Source: an uncultured Lachnospiraceae bacterium (GTDB taxonomy: Bacteria; Bacillota; Clostridia; Lachnospirales; Lachnospiraceae). From it: a stretch of 59,267 nucleotides of DNA. This document shows positions 2,363 to 35,693 of this stretch, piece by piece. The notes below the pieces were generated by a model, which was not told the origin of the DNA, did not search any database, and saw nothing but the letters and a program-made list of their open reading frames with translations. The position numbers were made by a program, and so were the translations under genes. Numbering within the stretch: the first letter of the stretch is position 1; the number at the start of each line of letters is the position of its first letter. Location of the stretch: the NCBI GenBank assembly GCA_947588845.1, contig CANQAR010000008.1:1-59267 (forward strand). Direction: 5' to 3'.

Positions 2363-3121
2363 CTATTTTCTTCCCTTTACCATAAAGACCGGCGTCGATT
2401 TATAGTTAATCTTTTCCGCCTCGCTGAGCACCCTCTCCCCGGCTGTCTCGTCCACTTCCACCCATTCAAATCCGATTTCTTTCATCACCCTGAGATCCCA
2501 GTCCGGCCTGTGGATCCTGCTCAGCGGCATTTCATACGCCAGACGTTCCATCTCCGCAATGTCCGTCCCCTCGTAATAGTCCTGCACCTGATGTTCCGCA
2601 GCGCTCTTGCGGTCCGCAATATAGGCCTTCCGAAGCTCTTCGTCATAGAGATATGCATACCAGTTTGCGTCAAAATTGAGCAGAATCCCGCCTTTTTTCA
2701 GCACACGATACCATTCCCTGTATGCTCTTTCAGGATCTTTCAGATTCCATGTCAGATTTCTGGTGACGATCATATCAAACGTATCATCCGCAAAACCGAG
2801 ATCCTGCGCGTCCATCTGCATCCAGACGATCTTGTCCCGCCAGCTGCCTGCATTTTTCCGGGCCTCGTTCAGCATCTCTTCCGTATAGTCGACAGCGGTT
2901 ACCTGATAACCCGCCTCCGCAAGAATGATCGCGAAAAATCCCGGACCGGTTCCGACGTCAAGAACTGTCGTGTCCTCCGGCCTCTTCTGTGTTCCGGACT
3001 GCCTGATTTCCCGCAGCCATTTTTTGCGCTGACCGCTTTTCAGTTCTTCCTGATTCACCTCGGAGTATCCTGCTGCGCGGCCCGCCCAGTATTTCTCTAT
3101 ATCTGCCAAAAACTGCGTCAT
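2363..3121 (-). CDS. class I SAM-dependent methyltransferase (paralogue)
   Basis: A 252-residue methyltransferase with motif I VLDVGTGPGFFAI near residue 54, VDYTEEML after it, and FDMIVTRNLTWNL as the motif IV region. It resembles the 369-1148 product over its whole length. A GGAGAG site precedes the ATG. It is the last gene in the direction of the nickel/peptide-type transporter operon, separated from the binding protein by a terminator hairpin and a dispersed repeat, so it may be partly independently expressed. A methyl-transfer step on the imported or exported small molecule is inferred from this linkage only. Confidence 0.85.
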   Translation of the reverse strand: MTQFLADIEKYWAGRAAGYSEVNQEELKSGQRKKWLREIRQSGTQKRPEDTTVLDVGTGPGFFAIILAEAGYQVTAVDYTEEMLNEARKNAGSWRDKIVWMQMDAQDLGFADDTFDMIVTRNLTWNLKDPERAYREWYRVLKKGGILLNFDANWYAYLYDEELRKAYIADRKSAAEHQVQDYYEGTDIAEMERLAYEMPLSRIHRPDWDLRVMKEIGFEWVEVDETAGERVLSEAEKINYKSTPVFMVKGRK

Positions 3122-28467: not shown

Positions 28468-30132
28468 TCAGCCAAGTGTACTCTGGATCCAGTTCTCGAT
28501 ATGTTCCGCGATCACGTCATTATTCAGATCCTGGAACATCATATGATCGTTTCCGTAGATCCCTTCATCCGGCAGACTCACCACGGTACAGGTACCGCCT
28601 GCAGCCGTATATGCTTCTTCAAACACATCCGCCGATGATTTCATCATAGTCCACATACCCGCTGCCGGAACATCTGTGAACTCTTCTCCAATGTAATCTC
28701 CATAGTAAAACGCCACCGGTATCTGCTTTTCCACAAGAGCCTGATAATCTTCGCTGTCCGTCATAGGAGCTCCGCCCGGTTCGATCGCTATGATCGCCGC
28801 AATATGATCCGTGTATCTGGCCGTCTCCCATCCAGGCATGCCGCCCTGGGAATGTGTGACGAGAATGGAATCCTTTCCGGTTCTCTCATATACTTCGTCG
28901 ATGGCAGCCGCCACTGCCTGCGCCACTACTGTAGTATCAATATTCTGGTCCCCGTTTGCAGAATCCATTGCCGTATCCGGCGTCATCTGACGGAAGAACT
29001 GATCCAGCACTTCTTCACCCTGCGGGAACTGGGAATTCTCATTGTAAGTAAACGCGCCGTCGATATAAGTTCCGATACGGAACTGCGTGTACCAGGTCTG
29101 ATCCGAAGGCTCCGTGCTTATTGTACCGGCAACGGATGTCTGCCCCGCTTCTCCGCGTCTTGGCTGGTCAATCAGAAACACACCGTGTCCCATTCTCAGA
29201 AACATGTCAGACCAGCCTTCCCTGCCGTCCGGCGTAGTCATCCAGGACATTCTGGACTGCCCATACCCATGAAGGAACACCATCGGGAGTCCCGTTTCTT
29301 CCGCCGGAATCTGATACAGCACATTCGCGTGATCCACATGAGAAGTCGAACCCTCTCTTGACGTATAATAGCTGGAAACGTCAAATGTCCCGTCCGATTC
29401 TGTCACGGTCCCTCCTGCGGAAAAGATTCCCTGATCCGCGATCATCAGGACATCCGTACTTTCCCGTGCCACATCGGCATCTTCCTCTGCTGTCTCATCA
29501 GAAGCCTGCTCCGCCGCAGTTTCAGCCGGAAGCGCCAGACTGCTGACCCACTCCGCAACCTCTTCGGCATCTGCGGAAGAAGAAAAGCGCTTTCCTTCCA
29601 GCCAGTCGCCTGTTCCGGCGGCCTCCGCCAGCAGTTCTCCGCTCTCACCAAATCCGGAACTCGACGATGTGCAGAAAGGAATCACTGTTTTTCCTGTAAA
29701 ATCATTGGCAGCGATAAATCCGTCCACGACCCAGGAAGCATTTCCCCACCAGATCGGATACCCGATAAACACTGTGTTGTAAGACTCCCATCCCTCAACC
29801 GTAGTCTCTTCAAGCTCCACTTCCCTGTCCTCTGGATGCTCATGTTCGTAACAAACCCGGCTGTTTTCGTCTGTCCAGTCCAGATCTGCGTCACTGTACG
29901 GTTCTGTCGGGATCAGCTGAAACAGGTCCGCATTTAATGTCTCTGCGATATCATTTGCGACCGCCTCAGTATGGCCTGTTGCGGAATAATAGACTACCAG
30001 TGTCTTTCCTCCGTCTGTCTCCGCGCTTTCTGCCCTCGCGATTCCACAGGCATACGCCCAGCTGAACACAAGCAGAACGCCCATCAAAACCATGATCCAC
30101 ATTCTGTTTTTTAATACCAGTTCTTTTTTCAT
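28468..30132 (-). CDS. exported flavodoxin fused to an alpha/beta hydrolase
   Basis: A 554-residue fusion. An N-terminal signal ('WIMVLMGVLLVFSWAYACG') is followed by a flavodoxin domain (about residues 35-190) with the FMN phosphate loop YYSATGHTEAVA and the Flavodoxin_4-like TVFIGYPIWWGNASW. An acidic linker leads to an alpha/beta hydrolase (about 230-550), with VFLHGYGQSRMSW, the nucleophile elbow VTHSQGGMPG and a late His in GNDHMMFQDL. Start at 30132 has AAGGAGG 6 nt upstream; an earlier ATG overlaps no ribosome site. It would place a flavoprotein and a hydrolase outside the membrane in one chain, which is unusual. Last gene before a terminator in the operon that starts at 35693. Confidence 0.85.
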   Translation of the reverse strand: MKKELVLKNRMWIMVLMGVLLVFSWAYACGIARAESAETDGGKTLVVYYSATGHTEAVANDIAETLNADLFQLIPTEPYSDADLDWTDENSRVCYEHEHPEDREVELEETTVEGWESYNTVFIGYPIWWGNASWVVDGFIAANDFTGKTVIPFCTSSSSGFGESGELLAEAAGTGDWLEGKRFSSSADAEEVAEWVSSLALPAETAAEQASDETAEEDADVARESTDVLMIADQGIFSAGGTVTESDGTFDVSSYYTSREGSTSHVDHANVLYQIPAEETGLPMVFLHGYGQSRMSWMTTPDGREGWSDMFLRMGHGVFLIDQPRRGEAGQTSVAGTISTEPSDQTWYTQFRIGTYIDGAFTYNENSQFPQGEEVLDQFFRQMTPDTAMDSANGDQNIDTTVVAQAVAAAIDEVYERTGKDSILVTHSQGGMPGWETARYTDHIAAIIAIEPGGAPMTDSEDYQALVEKQIPVAFYYGDYIGEEFTDVPAAGMWTMMKSSADVFEEAYTAAGGTCTVVSLPDEGIYGNDHMMFQDLNNDVIAEHIENWIQSTLG

Positions 30133-30186: not shown

Positions 30187-30969
30187 TCACTGGTTAAACA
30201 GCCAGCCCATTATTTTTTCATCGCGGGCAAAGAGCCCGCCTCCGCCATGCTGGTTATTCATACCTCTGTCTGTGAAATAGCTTTCGTCTTTAATATCCAG
30301 GACCAGCAGCTTATCGATTTTTCTCTCCGACAACCCCTGCTGCACATACAGTTCATGCAGTGTGTCATAAGCTTCCTGTGTCGGTTCAGAGCCATAATAT
30401 TCATCGTCCTGCCCTACGGCAAGATAAACCGGGGTGCGGCTTTGCGCCAAAACTTTCAGATCTCCGTCCCACTGAGAGCTGCAGTGCAGGTAGGCCGTGA
30501 ACAGCTCCGGGCGTTTCCCCATGACGATGGACATGGTCTCCCCGCCGCCGGAATAGCCGTTGGCGTAGACTTTCGTTCTGTCAATGTTATACTGCTCCAG
30601 AAAGTATTCCAGAAGAGCAATCGTCTGATCCGCGGAGGTTTCGCCCCAGTCGGAAAGCTGCGGAGCGACGATGATCATTTTTTCATTGTATTTCTGCGCT
30701 TCAAATCCGAACGCCTCGGATTTCAGATTCTGCGCGACACCCTGAAAATACAGGCCCTCATATCCCGGCAAGGTGAAATACAGCGCGTATGGTTTGCTTC
30801 CATCATAACTTTCCGGAATATAGACATTATAATGAATATCCCCATCCGTTTTTGAATGAAAAACGTTGTCCGTTATAAAACCGCGATACTTTCCGGTTCC
30901 GGTCTGAACAGGAGGAACAGTGCCGGAACCATTTATAGTTCCTGGTCCGTCACGCTCTTTTTTATCCAT
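30187..30969 (-). CDS. esterase (PHB-depolymerase/feruloyl-esterase-like), possibly made by frameshifting
   Basis: A 260-residue alpha/beta hydrolase. 'YNVYIPESYDGSKPYALYFT' begins the fold, the nucleophile elbow is NGYSGGGETM near residue 143, Asp may be in VGQDDEYYG and His in NNQHGGGG. The only ATG, at 30969, lies inside the flavodoxin gene, overlaps it by 37 nt and has no clear ribosome binding site. There is no signal peptide, although all partner hydrolases in this operon have one. A -1 shift at the A AAA AAG site would join it to the exported flavodoxin. Alternatives are coupled re-initiation or a recent frameshift mutation. Confidence 0.8.
   Translation of the reverse strand: MDKKERDGPGTINGSGTVPPVQTGTGKYRGFITDNVFHSKTDGDIHYNVYIPESYDGSKPYALYFTLPGYEGLYFQGVAQNLKSEAFGFEAQKYNEKMIIVAPQLSDWGETSADQTIALLEYFLEQYNIDRTKVYANGYSGGGETMSIVMGKRPELFTAYLHCSSQWDGDLKVLAQSRTPVYLAVGQDDEYYGSEPTQEAYDTLHELYVQQGLSERKIDKLLVLDIKDESYFTDRGMNNQHGGGGLFARDEKIMGWLFNQ
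30895..30963 (-). promoter_or_regulatory. candidate -1 ribosomal frameshift signal
   Basis: The heptamer A AAA AAG (30957-30963, minus strand) is read in the flavodoxin frame as ATA AAA AAG, the canonical X XXY YYZ register. A -1 slip continues as GAG CGT GAC, which is exactly the esterase frame. Downstream, GGTTCCGG (30923-30930) and CCGGAACC (30895-30902) form a perfect 8-bp stem, and GGAAC/GTTCC at 30925-30942 offers a shorter alternative. Spacing to the stems (14-26 nt) is longer than the usual 5-9 nt. Confidence 0.5.
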
Positions 30970-31562
30970 TTATCCACTGTTTTCTGCGATGGGACGCCAT
31001 AAAAATTACGTCCTTTCAGCCATTTCGTTTTGCCGGAAATAATCGCGCTTTTCTTAAGATGTTTCGCGCTGCTTCCAATTCCGCTGCTTGAGGAAGTGCA
31101 GAACGGAACTACCGTCTTTCCTTTCAGACTGACCTTTTCAACAAGACTGTACAGGATATGCGGCGCTTCGCCCCACCAGATCGGATATCCGATATAAACT
31201 ACGTCCGCCTTTTTGACAGCCTTTTTAATAGCATTTAAATTTCTGATCTCAGGCCTCACTTTGCTTTTTGCTGGAGAAGCCGCGCTTTCATGCTCGATTG
31301 TCACACGGCTGTTATTGTCTGTCCAGTCAATGTCTTCATCCGTATAGGGGTCTGCCGCCTTGATCTCAATGAGCTGTCCCTTTGTGTTCTTTTTAATCCT
31401 CTCCGCAGCCCCTTTTGTAGTTCCCGTTGCGCTGAAATACAGAATCACAGTATTTTTCTTTGTTTCTGCCTCCGCAGCAGTTCCATTCGTCTTTGCACAC
31501 GCAAAGGCTATGGCAAATACTAAAAACAGCGACAATAAACGGAACTGTCTTTTTCTTCTCAT
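30933..31562 (-). CDS. exported flavodoxin
   Basis: A 209-residue protein. A signal segment (FRLLSLFLVFAIAFACAK) leads to a flavodoxin domain with the FMN loop YFSATGTTKGAA, 'VVYIGYPIWWGEAPHILYSL' and PFCTSSSSGIGSSA, all of the Flavodoxin_4 type and close to the N-terminal half of 28468-30132. The start at 31562 is set by GGAGGAG about 12 nt upstream; longer frames extend into the permease gene. An exported flavodoxin is unusual because FMN must be bound outside or carried through a folded-protein route. The end of the gene overlaps the esterase and holds a slippery heptamer. Confidence 0.85.
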   Translation of the reverse strand: MRRKRQFRLLSLFLVFAIAFACAKTNGTAAEAETKKNTVILYFSATGTTKGAAERIKKNTKGQLIEIKAADPYTDEDIDWTDNNSRVTIEHESAASPAKSKVRPEIRNLNAIKKAVKKADVVYIGYPIWWGEAPHILYSLVEKVSLKGKTVVPFCTSSSSGIGSSAKHLKKSAIISGKTKWLKGRNFYGVPSQKTVDKWIKKSVTDQEL

Positions 31563-33692: not shown

Positions 33693-35693
33693 TTACATCT
33701 GCCGTTCCCAAAATGCCACAGCGTCGTTGATCCAGCCCTCCGCCACAGTGCCTGTTCCCAGTCCAAATCCATGAGGCAGTCCCTTATAGGCGTGAAATTC
33801 TGTCGGAATGCCAGCGGCGTCCATCGCTTTCAGGCGGCTCTGCATCGTCCTCCAGTTTGCAATCCAGTCGTTTGTTCCGACGCAGACATAGGTCGGCGGA
33901 TCGGTTTTCTGATATTCAGTATGGCCCGTATACTGCATGACAACGGTCCCTGCCTGCGGCAGATTGTCACCGCCAAAATAAGCCGGGCCATAGGAACCGA
34001 CATCCGCGGCCATTCTCGCGCCCGCCGAACCGCCCCACAGGGAATAACAGTCCGTGTCCACTTCCAGTTCATCCGCATGGGCAAAGATAAAGCTGACCGC
34101 TCTTGCCAGATCCTCGCAGGCAGTATCCCAGCCGGGACGATAGATCAGCGCAAAGGCGTTGTATCCCATTTTTGAAAGCTCCAGAGCGTGGGGAAAGCTG
34201 TCATGCATGGCCCCTACATAGGCAAACCCGCCCCCTGCGTTACAGACCGCAAATTTTCCTCCGGGATTTCCTTTAAAGAAGAATAAGCCGGTATCTGCTT
34301 TATCCGGGTCCACGGCCTTTTCCTCGTCAGTATAGATATCATAAAAAACCGTCTCGCCCGCTTCTGCGTGAGATTTCATGTAATTGACAATCTCCACTGT
34401 TTTGTTGGGGTCGATATAGTTGTACCATGTAAGCTGAAGATCCCCAAGTGTATCTCCGCTCCAGTAACCTGTATCTGCCGGAAAAATCAGCCTTCCGTAA
34501 TCTCCGAAAACCGGGTCGTTCATGACATCAGAAATCAAGGTATCATCTGTAAAGACTGTCGACCCTTCTGTATGCAGTTCTGTCTCCAGCCCTTCCTGAA
34601 AGTCCCCACTGTCATGGAAAAACAGAGGAAGCGCATTATAGAGATATTCCTGCACGGCGTCAAAGTCGTGATAGCCGCCGTCCTTCTGATAAAAAACATA
34701 ATGTTCCGGCGTAAACACATCATTTCTTTCCAGCATTTCTTCCGCCTGCATCAAAGTCTGACTCTTCACAGCGTCCTGTGTACCGACGGCATGATAGATA
34801 AAATAGCCTCTCTCATCCAGATTCTCATCTTTCACAAGCTGCTCGATGAAATCTACATTCTTTTCCGTCTGGAAATCGCCGTAAGTCCCATAGTACCAGC
34901 AGGAGCCGCTCATCGGCAGAAAATACCGGATATAATCATAGTCATAACAGAACTGCAGCCATGTGGTGACAGAGCCCAGAGAAAAGCCTCCAAACGCCCG
35001 GTGATCGCGGGACGCTTTCAGATCCTCCTCTGAGGCCGACCGCGCATAGGTATGGAACCTTCCTTCCACCGCAGGCATCAGATAATCTTCAAAATCCCGA
35101 TGGAACTGCCGGAATTCCTGAATGGAACTGCTAAAATCGGTACTGCTGTTCTCGTTATAAAACGTAGCCGATACGATAATGAGCGGCGGAATATCACCGT
35201 TTGCGATCAGATTGTCAAACAGATTTTTCGTCCCGGAAAACTCAAAATACTCTCCGGCATGACCGCCCCAGCCATGCATAAGATAAAGAATATTATACCG
35301 TGTCTTTGTGTCACTTTCGTCATATCCGTATGGCGTATAAACATAAGCAGTTTTCGTGATGGCAGCGCCGTCCCGGACATAATCTCTGGATCCGTAGTCA
35401 AGACGCACAATGCTGCCCTGTTTATCGGCCGTTTCTGTGTATTCTTCCGGCACAGCTGTCGTCCAGCCAGTCTGGGAAATTTCCATCTTCATGTCATCCT
35501 CTTCTGTTCCCGTATTTTTATCCGATACACTGCTGTTTTCCGCTTCCTGCATTTCGTCTGATTCACTTTCGTTTTCCGATTTGTCTTCCAATCCCGGAGA
35601 CTCGTCTGAGGCACTTCCGTTTGCTCCGCAGGCATTTAGAAAAATGAGGATCAAAACCATCATTATCAGGAATATCACATATTTTTGTTTCAT
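33693..35693 (-). CDS. lipoprotein with two esterase domains
   Basis: A 666-residue predicted lipoprotein (lipobox FLNACGANG), with an acidic linker and then two alpha/beta hydrolases. The first (about residues 90-370) resembles XynZ-type feruloyl esterases: YLMHGWGGHAGEY, FGGFSLGSVTTW for the nucleophile, and YHDFDAVQEYL for a possible His. The second (about 450-665) resembles BD-FAE-type esterases: NAGGGFAYVG as oxyanion hole, LWGGSAGARMAAD as nucleophile elbow and KGLPHGFGLG for His. GAGGGG precedes the ATG. It heads the operon under the third copy of the 45-bp element. Confidence 0.85.
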   Translation of the reverse strand: MKQKYVIFLIMMVLILIFLNACGANGSASDESPGLEDKSENESESDEMQEAENSSVSDKNTGTEEDDMKMEISQTGWTTAVPEEYTETADKQGSIVRLDYGSRDYVRDGAAITKTAYVYTPYGYDESDTKTRYNILYLMHGWGGHAGEYFEFSGTKNLFDNLIANGDIPPLIIVSATFYNENSSTDFSSSIQEFRQFHRDFEDYLMPAVEGRFHTYARSASEEDLKASRDHRAFGGFSLGSVTTWLQFCYDYDYIRYFLPMSGSCWYYGTYGDFQTEKNVDFIEQLVKDENLDERGYFIYHAVGTQDAVKSQTLMQAEEMLERNDVFTPEHYVFYQKDGGYHDFDAVQEYLYNALPLFFHDSGDFQEGLETELHTEGSTVFTDDTLISDVMNDPVFGDYGRLIFPADTGYWSGDTLGDLQLTWYNYIDPNKTVEIVNYMKSHAEAGETVFYDIYTDEEKAVDPDKADTGLFFFKGNPGGKFAVCNAGGGFAYVGAMHDSFPHALELSKMGYNAFALIYRPGWDTACEDLARAVSFIFAHADELEVDTDCYSLWGGSAGARMAADVGSYGPAYFGGDNLPQAGTVVMQYTGHTEYQKTDPPTYVCVGTNDWIANWRTMQSRLKAMDAAGIPTEFHAYKGLPHGFGLGTGTVAEGWINDAVAFWERQM

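Follow-up and report, generated by a model that had tools for sequence, protein, structure and literature searches.

The window, i.e., the whole analysed stretch of 59,267 nucleotides from an uncultured Lachnospiraceae bacterium, carries the gene of an exported flavodoxin and, directly behind it, an esterase reading frame (Table 1). As described preliminarily, the esterase ORF is in the -1 frame relative to the flavodoxin and is open from an A_AAA_AAG heptamer, which lies in exact register, 21 nt before the stop codon and 24 nt from the end of the stop. The 3' end of the flavodoxin gene reads ATA AAA AAG AGC GTG ACG GAC CAG GAA CTA TAA. The sibling gene was also correctly described as an in-frame fusion; its flavodoxin is joined to a hydrolase other than the junction esterase.

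Table 1. Features of the flavodoxin-esterase locus in the window.
Feature	Position	Strand	Basis
Exported flavodoxin (Flavodoxin_4), 209 aa, zero frame	30933..31562	minus	Pfam PF12682, E 1e-36
Signal-like N-terminus of the flavodoxin, MRRKRQFRLLSLFLVFAIAFAC	within the gene 31562-30933	minus	
Esterase ORF, -1 frame, 260 aa from the ATG at 30969	30187..30969	minus	tblastn, Pfam, AlphaFold model
Candidate entry into the esterase frame under the recoded reading	near 30941-30934	minus	
Sibling gene, in-frame exported flavodoxin-alpha/beta hydrolase fusion	28468..30132	minus	Pfam
A_AAA_AAG heptamer of the preliminary description	30957..30963	minus	in register, unconserved
Conserved candidate shift region G_GAA_CTA_TAA, i.e., G of CAG, GAA, CTA, and stop TAA	30933..30942	minus	
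Hairpin 5' arm GGTTCCGG, 8 nt after GAA	30923..30930	minus	window folding; pair counts in 20 loci
Hairpin 3' arm CCGGAACC	30895..30902	minus	window folding; pair counts in 20 loci; family-level synonymous-shuffle test

The esterase is an alpha/beta hydrolase. Residues S140, D189, and H241 (numbering of P0001) were conserved and are, by analogy, the putative catalytic residues. The closest solved structures were the thermostable esterase 3doh (TM 0.70) and the C-terminal esterase of LC-Est1. The catalytic domain of the junction esterase is complete; the export signal found in relatives is absent from it. In the AlphaFold model of the window esterase, residues 1-16 were unordered and the first strand was placed at 26-28, so the start of the ORF would resemble a linker. 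In agreement with the preliminary description, the window esterase showed no signal peptide and no clear ribosome site. The SD-like site of its ATG is weak (-2.4 kcal), and the ATG stands immediately 3' of a stop codon in the esterase frame.

Conserved region and candidate start codons at the flavodoxin stop

Relatives were collected by one scan of genome contigs, which gave 80 loci, and by searches of 1,687 whole genomes, which gave more. Duplicates, i.e., loci with an identical esterase core, were removed before counting. In 32 distinct loci, window included, the -1 frame carries the esterase immediately behind the flavodoxin stop. These junction loci comprise 25 from one rabbit-gut MAG set, the window, a goat MAG, two public MAGs, and three more genomes, and counts over them are not phylogenetically independent. 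The flavodoxin or esterase ends are damaged or cut in four (L047, L049, L085, and L108). That the -1 arrangement goes beyond chance is borne out by its recurrence in 31 further distinct loci.

A G preceding a GRN codon was found in 32/32 junction loci and in 11 of 59 other flavodoxin ends among the fetched loci, a set that includes weak hits. The GRN codon was GAA in 19 loci, GGG in eight, GGA in three, and GAC in two, i.e., the tetramer was G_GGN in 11/32 and G_GAA or G_GAC in 21/32. It was followed by CTA in 23 loci, by CCA and TTA in one each, and directly by the stop in seven. The stop codons of the junction flavodoxins were TGA (16), TAA (15), and TAG (1). CTA is a rare codon (12 of 939 Leu codons in these same genes). 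It makes up 23 of the 24 terminal Leu codons at the junction, compared with 0/16 in other flavodoxin ends.

The RNA model R1 gave one strong match per genome (44-75 bits, next 22) in 15 genomes, which had been picked for carrying the junction and in which 150 candidates were scored per genome; every strong match was the junction. R1 does not detect the group of L018, L099, L101, L121, and L149, and no real match to the element model was found in L037, L040, L142, and L077. A search of Rfam with five loci returned no family at the gathering score. Over the window genome, a simple pattern gave one exact match, i.e., the junction, and many chance matches.

Frame entry was analysed in the 20 of 32 loci that can be aligned without gaps, the same set that was used for pair counts and pN/pS. 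The -1 frame contained eight stops in the last 10 flavodoxin codons and none after the flavodoxin stop. The pN/pS of the esterase frame was 2.0 before the stop, 0.79 in the first codons after it, 0.61 in the loop, and 0.27 and 0.16 further in. By this measure, protein constraint on the esterase frame is absent before the stop, weak just after it, including the loop, and strong further in. Because stops and missing constraint occur only ahead of the flavodoxin stop, the esterase frame is entered within the last few codons.

The codon over the flavodoxin stop was ATG in 16/32 loci and ATA in the other 16/32, and never GTG or TTG. GTG and TTG are better start codons than ATA. On a quick esterase tree with 31 of the 32 loci, at least eight switches between ATG and ATA were counted. 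In L051, the esterase frame is closed by a stop 13 nt ahead of the flavodoxin stop, and no ATG, GTG, or TTG follows until a TTG at residue 55 after the flavodoxin stop. In L105, the first such codon is a GTG at residue 20, so the conserved GTETYNGF and the first strand would be cut off. Neither locus has ATG, GTG, or TTG ahead of the folded domain. Judged from the reading frames, the junction esterases are without a reliable start codon.

Several other candidate sites were tried. A_AAG tetramers roughly 28 nt upstream of the flavodoxin stop would be usable in some loci; they are far from the stem and are blocked by a -1-frame stop in L051, L058, L085, L086, and L105. An esterase start at the NTG of the flavodoxin C-terminal Trp codon (-22/-25) is missing in L051, L105, and L130, and the protein it would encode is unconserved. 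A bypass hop to the matching codon in the 3' arm was also considered; it fails to give the esterase frame, because that GAA is in the flavodoxin frame. An internal SD stimulator was not enriched in the 32 junction loci (mean -5.9 kcal) compared with 13 comparators (-6.6).

Hairpins behind the candidate shift site

The stem named in the preliminary description is present in the window (z -2.54), and 4/200 dinucleotide shuffles equal it. Its distance from the heptamer had been raised as a weakness. This objection is lifted, because the conserved G_GAA_CTA_TAA sits about 20 nt past the heptamer and only 8 nt from the stem. Across the family, the hairpin starts 6-8 nt past GRN in 28/32 loci; the distance is 5 nt in L018, 10 nt in L049 and L067, and 4 nt in L149, which is without a good stem.

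In the 20 gap-free loci, 96.7% of the cells of the nine pairs of the main hairpin were paired, and 12 cells were altered on both sides. The covariation score was matched by 0/500 shuffles, and the pair count (98/500) and pair-type count (417/500) of the same loci were unremarkable. In a MAFFT alignment of all 32 loci, 85.1% were paired with 17 double-changed cells (0/500 shuffles). When stem arms were picked per sequence, 88.1% were paired and slid controls gave 17.8-47.8%; the 88.1% is biased, because the arms were selected for best pairing. When synonymous codons were shuffled with the esterase protein kept, the junction hairpin was stronger than its shuffles in 24/32 loci (mean z -2.7), and seven control windows gave 0-6 positives of 31-32. 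The same test was not significant for the window (z -0.62, p 0.27), L049, L059, L067, L149, and three more. From this comparison of sequences, the junction hairpin is under selection.

RNAalifold with all 32 loci preferred a competing hairpin, formed by the shift site and the 5' arm of the main hairpin. It pairs TGGRNC with GGTTCCG (window 30943-30924) and was 96.7% paired in the 20 loci, with 14/500 shuffles as high. The two hairpins are mutually exclusive. The competing hairpin could by itself account for part of the G_GRN conservation.

Signal peptides and fusions in the esterase family

The tree and the signal tally used loci with an esterase match of at least 190 aa (111 rows); L108 was in the tally and not in the tree. 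In the hydropathy test, an esterase signal peptide was negative in 31/32 junction loci, and one locus passed the threshold (2.7). Of the relatives without the junction, 58/80 showed a signal peptide. Among the 22 signal-less relatives, 15 form an in-frame fusion with a domain upstream, eight of them with a flavodoxin, and one has a signal further upstream. Relatives outside the junction group carry an in-frame flavodoxin-esterase fusion (8/111 tree rows, including L002, L056, and L063), another in-frame upstream domain, or their own signal peptide. The in-frame flavodoxin-esterase and flavodoxin-hydrolase fusions place the same two domains on one exported chain, but they use one frame and have no element. 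Among the junction flavodoxins, 28/32 showed a signal-like stretch, and 27 a lipobox pattern; the four lacking the stretch have a truncated or broken 5' end.

Four loci with their own esterase signal peptide (L037, L040, L142, and L077) nest in two clades of junction loci, each with SH-aLRT 99. As read from the tree, a separate signal peptide was either acquired or retained at the junction position in these loci. Within the clade that includes the window, the esterase of L032 carries a signal peptide, and L031 and the window have the element.

In L033 (1727-2218) and L035 (1725-2216), a first flavodoxin with its own stop precedes a flavodoxin-element-esterase unit. These first flavodoxins are 79% and 76% identical to the window flavodoxin. 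The layout points to a likely source of the window form, in which the first flavodoxin would have taken over the element. Of the second flavodoxin, apparently only the last codons and the element remain in the window.

In L077, L091, and L110, the lipoprotein signal of the esterase starts at the NTG of the flavodoxin C-terminal Trp codon and overlaps the flavodoxin gene.

Proposed recoding and its alternatives

The comparison of loci establishes that the -1 frame relation and the element are conserved and that they alternate in the family with in-frame fusions and signal-peptide forms. These features are probably explained by programmed -1 recoding at the C-terminus of the flavodoxin, by which an exported flavodoxin-esterase fusion would be produced beside the flavodoxin alone. 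A ribosome at the last codons of the flavodoxin would meet NNG_GRN, then the rare CUA or the stop, and then the hairpin. A fraction of the ribosomes would slip one base back and go on to translate the esterase in the -1 frame. The likeliest step is a -1 slippage of the peptidyl-tRNA on GRN, which would re-pair with GGR while CUA or the stop waits slowly in the A site; the hairpin would be positioned at the mRNA entry during slippage. Two products would result, i.e., free flavodoxin and a fusion exported by the flavodoxin signal peptide. The occurrence of the shift, the precise codon, the efficiency, and the role of the fusion are inferred.

Measured slip sites bear on this reading in both directions. 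Single-tRNA A_AAG shifts, including that of B. subtilis cdd, are a precedent for slippage without a heptamer (PMC5009743, available text). In the E. coli reporters described in the available text of PMC4066793, G_GGG was not shifty despite a strong stimulator. G_GAA and G_GAC would be poorer still as slip sites, which counts against recoding on GRN. Signals exceeded background both for G_GGG and for its non-shifty control in these reporters, and the authors suspected low initiation at the -1-frame AUA (PMC4066793).

This last result fits translational coupling, although at the present junction the G-run lies just 2 nt before AUA. In coupling, the ribosome would terminate at the end of the flavodoxin, step back by one base, and start again at AUG (ATGA) or AUA (ATAA), giving a cytosolic signal-less esterase. 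An overlapping stop and start is the usual mark of coupling in the available part of PMC3711429, and the ATGA overlap is present in 16/32 loci. The lipoprotein esterases of L037, L040, and L142 begin at exactly the stop-overlapping ATG. However, the other 16/32 loci have only ATA over the stop, with the repeated switches and the lack of GTG or TTG described above, and the nested, signal-bearing L077, which has ATA, starts its signal at an upstream ATG instead. A cytosolic esterase conflicts with the 58/80 signal-bearing relatives and the eight fusions, and a covarying hairpin a few nt past the start codon would have no role. In the ATA loci, the signal-less esterase, and the covarying hairpin, the junction differs from ATGA coupling (PMC3711429). 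Coupling is considered unlikely on this balance.

A shift of the window genome at its local A_AAA_AAG, with the downstream element as a relic, is very improbable. The heptamer is in register, the esterase frame is open from it, and, among bacterial slip motifs, it is used most often in the surveyed IS elements (PMC4066793). But it is absent in 31/32 loci, including the nearest one, L031 (89% esterase identity); the window's copy is the sole in-register X_XXZ_ZZN in the last 25 codons across the 32 loci. The stem lies 26 nt from it, and the downstream element is intact in the window. The preliminary description had taken this heptamer as the shift signal, and this part of it fell. Its alignment check kept the frame relation in 32 loci and the heptamer in the window alone. 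What stood of the frameshift reading is a conserved -1 change that would join an exported flavodoxin to a signal-less esterase, with a stem downstream. Findings that had been named in advance as arguing against a frameshift were partly met with, i.e., in-frame fusions and separately initiated lipoprotein esterases occur among relatives, and the heptamer is unconserved. However, conservation is found for a different element, which the nested relatives with their own signal peptide do not have.

A frame break of a former in-frame fusion, by gene decay or assembly error, is the least credible explanation: breaks of this kind are seen within otherwise intact fusions or genes in L080, L082, L085, and L108, where they are presumably decay or assembly errors, but for the family it is refuted by 32 distinct loci in which the frame, the element, and the esterase sequence (pN/pS 0.16) have all been kept.

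The proposed recoding was compared with known systems. Canonical -1 frameshifting (dnaX, IS3/IS911) is alike in producing a -1 fusion beside a short product and in its hairpin, which at the junction is mostly 6-8 nt off the candidate codon. However, X_XXZ_ZZN is absent in 31/32 junction loci, where a G and GRN are followed by the rare CTA or a stop. The canonical cases are transposase genes or dnaX, whereas the junction belongs to an exported lipoprotein gene. A hairpin at about the canonical distance, 5-8 nt after the slip codon, is present. The slippery X_XXZ_ZZN or Z_ZZN motif is not a shared feature of the junction loci, and the optional internal SD is not enriched. Because the stem spacing agrees and the motif does not, the junction would work like a programmed frameshift outside the canonical motif class.

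The bypass in gene 60 of phage T4 has a Gly GGA before the stop and a hairpin at the site. The junction is similar in its GGA or similar codon before the stop and in its hairpin; it differs in having no long untranslated gap and in a -1 frame that is open from the stop on. In B. subtilis cdd, the stop follows directly after CGA AAG. The cdd shift is alike in being a -1 shift at the last sense codons (PMC5009743), but its extension is short and described as incidental, whereas at the junction an entire second domain follows, there is a hairpin, and the arrangement is conserved in 32 loci. The A_AAG slip codon before the stop, which is typical of cdd, is absent from the junction, which ends with GRN-CTA-stop or GAA-stop.

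It is quite possible, though somewhat less likely than not, that the junction represents a new class of -1 signal, in which single-tRNA slippage on G_GRN, CUA or the stop in the A site, and gating by two hairpins would be combined, and that the family switches repeatedly among four ways of esterase export. In the gating, the shift site would pair with the 5' arm before the ribosome arrives, and the 5' arm with the 3' arm once the ribosome covers the site. Export would rely on a signal of the esterase itself, on in-frame fusion, on -1 recoding, or perhaps on +1 recoding or read-through (L076 and L087). Recoding would then form an evolutionary bridge between separate and fused genes.

Bacterial -1 frameshifting is known mostly from mobile elements, according to the available text of PMC3711429. 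This text, a survey of 1,106 prokaryotic genomes, mentions neither flavodoxin nor esterase, and, in the collection of papers searched, none joined programmed ribosomal frameshifting, flavodoxin, and esterase, and related terms gave no fitting entry. If the recoding is true, conserved recoding in ordinary chromosomal genes would decide the export of an enzyme, which would be a new use of recoding. Because the site departs from the slippery rules established by E. coli measurements, an annotation pipeline would predict two separate genes and a cytosolic esterase. In this family, one enzyme pair can be compared naturally as a fusion, in the proposed recoded arrangement, and as separate genes.

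Further arrangements were observed in single loci or pairs of loci. In L076, the flavodoxin ends with TTT CCC TGA C and a signal-less esterase follows in the +1 frame (one locus); CCC_TGA looks like a +1 slip site. In L087 (about 2950-3005), flavodoxin and esterase are in the same frame, split by a TGA alone, and a hairpin of -33.3 kcal/72 nt follows (one locus); stop read-through is possible there. In L016 and L039, the esterase domain lies in frame behind a hydrolase, the C-terminus of which resembles that of window gene 33693-35693.
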